From Paenibacillus sp. VTT E-133291 (GTDB lineage Bacteria; Bacillota; Bacilli; Paenibacillales; Paenibacillaceae): a stretch of 64,000 bases of DNA. The translations under genes and the position numbers were made by a program. Every line of letters begins with the position of its first letter. Position 1 is the first letter of the stretch. The notes below the pieces were generated by a model, which did not search any database, was not told the origin of the DNA, and saw only the letters and a program-made list of their open reading frames with translations. Below, piece by piece: positions 34,521 to 36,326 of the stretch. The stretch spans positions 124,001 through 188,000 of the forward strand of contig NZ_NFVA01000002.1 of the NCBI RefSeq assembly GCF_002264395.1, given 5' to 3'.

Positions 34521-34544
34521 TTCTCAATGGAGATGAACCTACAA

Positions 34545-35336
34545 ATGGTAAATAGCTTGATTGTAGTATGCTTGCTTACAATGATTATTCATACAGCAGA
34601 AACGTTATCTTATTCGGTAAGATACGCCGGGGTGAAGCTGAACAAGATAGCTATTGCTTTGTCTTTGACAGGCATTATTGTTCTCGTGTCAAGAACTGCA
34701 AACATGATTCAAGCTCCACTGACGGCTAAATTCGTAGATTATGCCAAAATACATTCTGATTTCCCACTACTTAATTACCTGAGAATTATATTATTAGCTT
34801 CTTCATTAGGGACATTAATAGCCATTGCTATTTTTCCAACCTTCGTAGGCTTGTTTGGGAGAATCATCTCAAAGCTTGAAATTGAAGGTTCTATTCCCAA
34901 GCTGCTTACGAGCGTAACGATCGGGCAGTTAAAAAATACTAGAAAATACATAAGAAAACCAAAAGTGAATCTATATAACTTCAGATACTTGGGGATTCCT
35001 AAACGTTTTATTGTTATGAATGTTTTTGTTACAGCCTTTTACACCGTAGGGGTCATTTCATCTTTGTATGCTGCTCATCTAATGCCTCAATATAGCACGA
35101 CTGCTTCTCAAGCCTCTGGATTGATTAATGGAATGGCGACTATACTGCTGACCATATTTATCGACCCACAGCTTGGTCTTATTACCCATAAAGCCACTGA
35201 AAATGTAGAATACCGTGATCAGCTAGGAAAAATATATGTGGTATTGATGGGTTCACGATTTCTAGGTACTATATTTGCTCAGCTCCTGATTGTGCCCGCA
35301 GCCCAACTAATCAGTATATTAGTGAAGCTGATATGA
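34545..35336 (+). CDS. amj: Lipid II flippase Amj
   Basis: 263 residues from the ATG at 34545; upstream in-frame ATGs at 34527 and 34533 have no site before them, while GGAG lies inside this extension. Six or more membrane spans; IHTAETLSYSVRYAGVKLNKIAIALSL, SRTANMIQAPLTAKFVD and FIDPQLGLITHKA match the Amj (YdaH) family. Amj moves lipid II across the membrane and can replace MurJ; in B. subtilis it is under SigM control. Here it ends a five-gene row with a Nudix hydrolase and phosphatase. A stretch without a clear terminator follows. Confidence 0.88.
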   Translation: MVNSLIVVCLLTMIIHTAETLSYSVRYAGVKLNKIAIALSLTGIIVLVSRTANMIQAPLTAKFVDYAKIHSDFPLLNYLRIILLASSLGTLIAIAIFPTFVGLFGRIISKLEIEGSIPKLLTSVTIGQLKNTRKYIRKPKVNLYNFRYLGIPKRFIVMNVFVTAFYTVGVISSLYAAHLMPQYSTTASQASGLINGMATILLTIFIDPQLGLITHKATENVEYRDQLGKIYVVLMGSRFLGTIFAQLLIVPAAQLISILVKLI

Positions 35337-35354: not shown

Positions 35355-36131
35355 TTATGGAAGCTTAGACTCTGCAGATCGTAGAGCTAGGGAGATCTTC
35401 TGCTCCCAGCTGTAAATATTTTGATGCATGTCATGAATTCGTTTCATTTGCTCAAAGGATGCTTTCATTTTTATTGCTGCCGTAATCGCATCCCCTTGTT
35501 TTACAGCCGATTTATATTGTTTATCTGCTTCTGAACGAACTTTCTGTGCTATAGCGATATTCTTGTTCTCGGCGGTGATTTGCTTCTTCAAAGCTGTGAT
35601 CGGGGCCAGAGCATCTTTGACAGGCTTGATCTTGGCAGCGGTTTGCTTGCGGGCAGTTGCCAATGCGTCTGTCTTCGCCTTCATTTCAGTGCGAGCGAGT
35701 GTTACCGCAGCTTTGAGCTTATTGCGTCTTAGATCCAGGAGAGTGGCTGTCTTAAAATCCTTAGCTTTCTTGGCTGCGGTAGACTGCTTACTGAGAGTGC
35801 TGTATTGTTCCAGCAGGGGAGCATGTTTCTTCTGAGCTGACGTAGCTTCAGATGATAAACGACTCAGCAGAACCTTATCTGTTGACTCTATGACAGAATG
35901 AATAGATTTCAGTGTTTCATTATTCTGCTTACGTAACATTTGAATTTTTGAGCTATAGGACTTGAGGGCTACTTGAAGTGAGGTATAATTAGCATGGAGA
36001 CCGTTAATGTCATCTAAGGCTGACTCCCAATCTGTACCTGCTGAAGCTAATGTTAGGTTGATGTTGAGGAGGGCTACTACTAGAATGAATTGGACAAACC
36101 GCTTTAAATAACTAAAATTGTGAATAAACAT
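35355..36131 (-). CDS. Secreted coiled-coil protein of unknown function
   Basis: 258 residues. A signal peptide (FVQFILVVALLNINLTLASAG, cut near residue 32) precedes a body almost wholly helical and rich in Lys, Ala, Gln and Ser, with heptad-like runs such as ATLLDLRRNKLKAAVTLARTEMKAKTDALATARKQ. No catalytic motif or cysteine was seen. It resembles helical surface or wall-associated proteins. AAGGAG lies 9 bases before the ATG. It is alone on the minus strand and is preceded by a promoter and an attenuator-like hairpin at 36159-36269. Confidence 0.75.
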   Translation of the reverse strand: MFIHNFSYLKRFVQFILVVALLNINLTLASAGTDWESALDDINGLHANYTSLQVALKSYSSKIQMLRKQNNETLKSIHSVIESTDKVLLSRLSSEATSAQKKHAPLLEQYSTLSKQSTAAKKAKDFKTATLLDLRRNKLKAAVTLARTEMKAKTDALATARKQTAAKIKPVKDALAPITALKKQITAENKNIAIAQKVRSEADKQYKSAVKQGDAITAAIKMKASFEQMKRIHDMHQNIYSWEQKISLALRSAESKLP

Positions 36132-36158
36132 TCATTTCAGCTCCTTAATTAGTCTATG

Positions 36159-36212
36159 CGCGCAAAAAAGCACCTCCAAGATAGGCATGAATGCCTATCT
36201 TGCGAGGTGCTT
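36159..36212 (-). terminator. Attenuator-like terminator in the leader of the coiled-coil gene
   Basis: On the minus strand AAGCACCTC pairs with GAGGTGCTT and CAAGATAGGCAT with ATGCCTATCTTG, 21 base pairs with one bulged G and a 2-base loop, followed by TTTTTT. It lies between the promoter at 36241-36269 and the start at 36131. The upstream GCGAG (36215-36219 region) can pair instead with the CTCGC that overlaps the left arm, a possible antiterminator. Confidence 0.7.
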
Positions 36213-36240
36213 CTCTCGCAGAAATATAAATGATACACTT

Positions 36241-36269
36241 ACTATAACTTGAAATTAATGGATAGTCAA
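36241..36269 (-). promoter_or_regulatory. Sigma-A-type promoter of the coiled-coil gene
   Basis: Read on the minus strand, TTGACT (36269-36264) and TATAGT (36246-36241) are separated by exactly 17 bases. Transcription would begin near 36234 and run through the attenuator-like hairpin. Confidence 0.7.
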
Positions 36270-36326
36270 TCTGAAAAAGAACATTTGTTTGCTTTTTGGA
36301 ATAATGAAACATAAGGAGAGTCAAAG

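Follow-up and report, generated by a model that had tools for sequence, protein, structure and literature searches.

We propose that the leader of a coiled-coil protein gene in the window (the whole stretch of Paenibacillus DNA that was analysed, 64,000 nt) is one copy of a family of transcription attenuators, and that a putative antiterminator acting on this family releases a competence-like set of DNA-uptake and recombination genes. We put the probability of this reading at roughly 0.6. As expected of an attenuator, the leader has two mutually exclusive folds, one of them a terminator with a T tract, ahead of a gene. The parts of the locus are as follows.

36279..36290, minus strand: LexA/SOS-type palindrome AAACAAATGTTC, 7/8 letters, upstream of the -35 box
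36241..36269, minus strand: promoter TTGACT-17-TATAGT, 10/12 consensus letters, alike at the same place in orthologous leaders (-35 TTGACT 36269-36264; 17-nt spacer; -10 TATAGT 36246-36241)
36201..36220, minus strand: small antiterminator-type hairpin, loop AAGCA at 36212-36208
36164..36212, minus strand: intrinsic terminator, stem 36212-36168 and T tract 36169-36164
36141..36146, minus strand: Shine-Dalgarno-like AAGGAG, by sequence
35355..36131, minus strand: coiled-coil protein gene (family A); the 258-aa product begins like a signal peptide, secretion judged by eye

The first-pass annotation had described a promoter followed by a hairpin and two exclusive folds, and this anatomy was found as described, with the promoter at 36269-36241 and the terminator at 36212-36164. 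The 5' segment TGCGAG (36220-36215) pairs with CTCGCA (36206-36201) inside the terminator 5' arm at approximately -9 kcal/mol, and the CTCGC of this small hairpin is part of the arm of a terminator hairpin (36212-36168) with a computed fold of -32.8 kcal/mol. As the small hairpin and the terminator share 36212-36201, only one of them can form. Approximately 32 nt separate the terminator T tract from the ATG at 36131. The fold of the 105-nt leader lies 6.5 sd under 200 shuffles, none of which was as low; folded freely, the window copy favours a loop of 8 nt, which we count against the attenuator reading. The leader hairpin was not among the calls of a terminator scan of the window, and a promoter scan of the window was at chance level (12 found vs 12.3 expected). 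Since neither part is established by consensus scans alone, the case rests on conservation in 57/57 orthologous loci.

The earlier statement that no riboswitch family is recognisable agrees with our search of the window, in which no Rfam family reached its gathering score. Among 19 related loci searched to E 5, none reached the gathering level and three sub-threshold matches were found; one of these, mir-745 (E 4.9), lies over an element and was taken as chance. Away from the element, one related locus (L042:3453-3621, minus strand) has a match to the Vibrio AS7 RNA family at 60.5 bits vs a gathering score of 90. Two other candidates were rejected: a leader peptide, for which no convincing short frame was seen by eye between promoter and hairpin, and a CsrA site, the motif of which includes GGA, as no GGA is invariant in family A leaders.

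The protein encoded behind the leader has no Pfam or NCBIfam family. Its AlphaFold model consists of four long helices (mean pLDDT 91.5), with no PDB sequence match and no Foldseek match at E 0.001 in a PDB fold search; a plasmid search with the protein gave no match. It has matches at E <= 0.001 in 90/100 genomes of the genus, below 1e-45 in 73 of them, and the weaker matches are a second, paralogous coiled-coil family that we named B. The named relatives of the gene belong to Paenibacillus and one Saccharibacillus. Convergent with the gene lies an Amj (alternate to MurJ) family gene (34527-35336, plus strand, PF10997).

Whether homologous genes lack the promoter and hairpin was a question raised at the outset. 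We collected 58 orthologous loci and, after setting aside a distant Alicyclobacillus match (L060), found the hairpin kept in 57/57, 51 by a first pattern and 57 by a looser one built from the motif letters with 20-42 free bases; the promoter region, too, is visibly conserved. GAAGCACC is invariant in 57/57 family A leaders, at 15-34 nt from the -10 box. In the covariance analysis that the first-pass annotation had suggested, 6/16 predicted pairs of the family A terminator have two-sided changes. The small stem is conserved within family A and showed no two-sided compensatory change, nor did it beat column shuffles. Support for the small stem therefore comes from the comparison between gene classes.

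For that comparison, we used 28 elements, made up of 21 single cases and one representative of each gene class, a set that is not fully independent. Their common design is a small stem of approximately 4-6 bp with a pentaloop AAG[C/A]A, usually GG/CC closed, the 3' strand of which is the 5' arm of the terminator. The small stems of the 28 elements sum to -170.3 kcal/mol, compared with -101.5 (sd 10.4) when their 5' strands were permuted, and 0/3000 permutations were as low. Counting outward from the loop, 28, 27, 24, 21, 14, 13 and 10 of the 28 elements are paired at successive positions, vs 28, 27, 13.5, 16.3, 11.3, 9.7 and 11.3 with permuted 5' strands. Because some single cases may be related, we dropped L130, L138, L246 and L309, and the result for 24 elements was the same (0/2000 as low in each of five draws).

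These stems bear on the reading that the hairpin is an ordinary insulating terminator and that the likeness between loci is a preferred terminator sequence. The same letters do end ordinary genes such as ftsZ and rplT (read by eye), but nine such terminators lack the upstream stem: nine ordinary 3' terminators, labelled by context and not blind, average -0.6 kcal/mol, vs class means of -4.9 to -7.3 kcal/mol. Moreover, the window copy sits behind its gene's own promoter, and permuted letters are rare (5/100 genus genomes). We regard an insulating terminator as most improbable.

The fourth letter of the loop is C or A in the elements compared, and G/T versions occur in 10/149 genomes (11 matches, all G). 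The change from C to A at this letter is accompanied by a matching change in the terminator arm, and GAGCA loops were seen in L199 and L298. In five comEC leaders (L277, L278, L281, L284 and L289), a CGTG/CACG or CATG/CATG stem carries AAGCA and the terminator, read by eye, does not use the loop. That AAGCA is kept where the terminator does not use it is the best sign of loop recognition. This observation bears on a purely intrinsic kinetic attenuator, in which the small hairpin would set a fixed or growth-rate-dependent readthrough with no dedicated factor. Such a device could work from the RNA as it stands, as both folds are encoded in it and the small stem forms first; it would need pairing rather than one loop sequence, yet the loop is nearly fixed across unrelated genes and is kept even where the terminator does not need it. 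We consider an attenuator of this kind quite unlikely.

The preferred reading, attenuation with a dedicated antiterminator, would work as follows. RNA polymerase would first make the small AAG[C/A]A hairpin, and later sequence would let the 3' strand of this hairpin switch into a much stronger intrinsic terminator, so that transcription would by default end after approximately 70 nt. Of the two folds, the terminator came out as the more stable one in each of the 193 non-control elements compared, which we count against the attenuator reading; since the small hairpin comes first and the terminator is stronger, termination is likely the default, and something must hold the hairpin for readthrough to occur. 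A trans-acting factor, most likely an RNA-binding protein, would keep the AAG[C/A]A hairpin in place and so prevent the terminator from closing, allowing readthrough. The alternation of C and A at one position of the loop favours a protein over an RNA in this role. What the computation itself establishes is the anatomy, its conservation, the associated genes and the loop preference; default termination, antitermination, the factor and a competence signal are predictions built on these.

The element is widespread among relatives of the window's genome. A covariance model built on family A leaders also matched leaders of further genes, among them the B paralogue; its counts (98/100 and 290/295) include antisense matches on the same palindromes and ordinary terminators, and were not used as evidence. 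The pattern GAAGCACC-N22-48-GGTGCTTTTT was present in 98/100 genus genomes, and its permuted form GAACGACC-N22-48-GGTCGTTTTT in 5/100. With GG in front, the AAGCA pattern was found in 123/149 genomes of the window's order. A sample drawn across the class had it in 27/27 members of the order and in 5/272 others. The AAGAA form (GGAAGAACC-N20-48-GGTTCTTTTT) was found in 76/149 genomes of the order. Three exact copies are present in the window's own genome, before the window gene, the B paralogue (C108) and a Tad pilus operon (C233) with T2SSE, two T2SSF and Peptidase_A24; the same genome has a comEC copy with an AAGAA loop and a copy before the HRDC-domain gene with a GAGCA loop.

Outside the order, the AAGCA pattern was seen in three genomes of one family (f21; G136 and related; G499, G604), where two copies (L160, L162) lie approximately 20 nt before related genes of 357-371 aa with no Pfam match. 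Some contigs carry multiple copies before unrelated genes (seven on G190:C35; also G024:C13 and C15, G246:C55 and G344:C2); as some of these copies are identical between species, this looks like mobile elements using the element. Of 16 viral contigs with the pattern, the small stem is stable in 10 (<=-4 kcal/mol; L201, L203, L205-L211, L213), and viral copies often lie between phage structural genes and a regulator-like gene. Other matches look accidental (L147, L156, L157, L159, L316, L321, L323) or fall inside coding sequence (L319, L320).

Across these genomes, the element precedes comEC, recA, comM or its operon, Tad/Flp pilus operons, an HRDC-domain gene, and coiled-coil families A and B. 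Among the first 60 listed pattern matches in other families of the order, the downstream gene was HRDC in 22, B in 21 (one by tblastn only), CpaE-like in 7 (assigned by BLAST to one protein that itself has weak family matches), ComEC in 3, RcpC/CpaB in 1 and ComM in 1. These six recurrent groups account for 55/60, and the other five had no assigned downstream group (L225, L239, L246, L255, L258). ComEC was assigned by PF03772/PF13567 and TIGR00361, RecA by TIGR02012, and ComM by TIGR00368 with PF01078/PF13541.

Starting from proteins instead, a scan for stem, loop and terminator was passed by 29/30 HRDC and 26/30 comEC loci, each set being the 30 best matches with no random draw, and by 13/30 family A leaders. 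Read by eye, the single HRDC failure has a GAGCA loop, and those of comEC are marked by a CATG-AAGCA-CATG hairpin, a short run of T, a loop GAGCA, or a distance of 427 nt rather than 33 between element and comEC. A second scan, anchored at the first possible start codon, was passed by 17/57 family A, 22/30 HRDC, 16/30 comEC and 6/8 recA leaders, and by 2/255 other genes, both of which (L309, L310) sit in loci fetched for the element. One comEC locus (L329, in G068) has approximately 390 nt extra between element and comEC relative to the window's genome.

For the AAGAA form, 20 loci were fetched to represent its sequence classes. RecA was downstream in 9/20, close by in 81-92 percent of cases; in L307, the recA start is approximately 790 nt past the element. 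The gene upstream of the recA element was CinA in one tested AAGAA locus. In G136, the AAGAA copy follows an RNase HII gene and precedes an operon-like run that includes a ComM gene. Several of the 20 loci look like ordinary terminators or fall in coding sequence, and within the window's genus a recA leader with the AAGAA pattern was found in only 1/17 genomes (G013).

The HRDC-domain protein (approximately 337 aa; L144:930-1940 and orthologues) was found in 143/149 genomes of the order, three with only weak matches, and the orthologues in G359, G366, G370 and G373 have in-frame stop codons. Its structural model predicts an N-terminal beta sheet, to which no type was assigned, and a PDB fold search with the model returned HRDC domains at a best E of 0.01, together with PARP entries of low score. 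We rejected this protein as a universal regulator of the family, as G136 and G146 have elements and no match to it.

The positions of the element also bear on whether the window copy encodes a stand-alone trans-acting small RNA of approximately 70 nt with its own promoter and terminator, the gene behind being a neighbour or read by leakage; a stand-alone small RNA, there of about 80 bases, was the alternative already named in the first-pass annotation. Promoter and terminator are close together, a terminated leader would exist in either case, and several of the viral copies with a stable stem (10/16 contigs) have no close same-strand gene behind them. Nevertheless, the element stands repeatedly just ahead of the same gene groups, its comEC copies lie between comEB and comEC with no obvious promoter of their own (by eye), and the alternation of C and A within the loop speaks against a fixed partner for pairing. 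In the window's genome, the gene upstream of comEC is dCMP deaminase-type, comEB-like. Recurrence before unrelated genes and between comEB and comEC, two genes of one operon, fits attenuation better, and we consider a small RNA very unlikely.

As the same hairpin precedes comEC, recA, comM, Tad, HRDC, A and B genes, a factor that holds it would switch on the whole set together, and the shared pentaloop suggests one common putative regulator. The identity of the targets suggests a role in DNA uptake and recombination, although carriers with no known link to DNA uptake, namely a 3D/G5-domain protein (L112), surface proteins and transposase-like genes, count against a competence set. According to PMC4322843, transformation of Micrococcus luteus requires Tad/Flp genes.

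Family A alone among the classes commonly has a LexA-type box. At least 7/8 letters of GAACNNNNGTTC, which we take to be the consensus of this box as seen in relatives, were present in 50/57 family A leaders vs 1.1 expected from shuffles, including 33/40 loci without and 17/17 with a divergent SDR gene. Elsewhere the box was found in 3/36 B, 2/15 Tad, 0/29 HRDC, 0/9 recA, 4/22 comEC, 1/2 comM and 2/24 other leaders. With this conserved box nearby, the family A promoter is a candidate for LexA/SOS control. It is conceivable that the attenuator family is real and that its regulon serves DNA damage or life on a surface, not DNA uptake: recA, the HRDC-domain protein and the family A box would fit damage, and pili, coiled-coil and surface proteins would fit life on surfaces. 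We think this unlikely, as comEC and comM together are hard to explain by either alone, and classes other than A have little or no LexA-type box (at most 4/22).

A broader form of the competence reading, which we hold tentatively and at a little under even odds, is an order-wide antitermination regulon in which a putative AAG[C/A]A-binding protein would switch on natural competence after initiation, with mobile elements and phages tapping in. The competence set would here comprise the ComEC channel, a Tad-type DNA-uptake pilus, ComM, RecA, the HRDC-domain protein and the two coiled-coil proteins. If true, the Paenibacillus group would control DNA uptake and recombination at a shared point, through antitermination and not through a DNA-binding activator, and the two orphan coiled-coil families and the HRDC-domain protein would gain a first functional context. 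A hairpin of approximately 20 nt with defined loop mutants would be a concrete bait for the regulator, and the uncoupling of comEC from comEB, its housekeeping neighbour, would offer a simple case open to testing.

Among openly licensed papers, we found no description of the element by title or start of abstract. A P. riograndensis transcriptome study (PMC5670726) checked 5' UTRs of more than 100 nt against Rfam. Several known antitermination systems resemble the element in part, and we compared them in turn.

The lambda boxB/N system uses a GNRNA-type pentaloop hairpin for processive antitermination, with no overlap between hairpin and terminator. The likeness lies in a pentaloop hairpin serving antitermination with a variable fourth loop base; here, however, the loop mostly starts with A and the hairpin overlaps the terminator. 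BglG/SacY (LicT) sites, which were compared here through Rfam only, have sugar-operon targets and a longer recognition element. They share an antiterminator element that overlaps a mutually exclusive terminator (family named in PMC3369931). ANTAR targets (EutV, NasR, AmiR), as PMC3369931 describes them, have two hairpins with hexaloops bearing A1 and G4. As in those targets, a small hairpin recognised by its loop would overlap the 5' part of a terminator, its stabilisation would lead to antitermination, and target sets can be regulons (PMC3369931); unlike them, the element has one hairpin with a pentaloop AAG[C/A]A. An ANTAR target RNA was rejected because the hairpin is single and has a pentaloop, and because most family A leaders leave no space for another one ahead of it. 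In LoaP antitermination of the dfn and mln operons, a UNCG-type hairpin distinct from the terminator acts on long biosynthetic operons, according to PMC12691694. We rejected a LoaP hairpin, which requires the UNCG type where the loop here is AAG[C/A]A, but the element shares with that system a small leader RNA hairpin combined with a leader terminator in Bacillota (PMC12691694).
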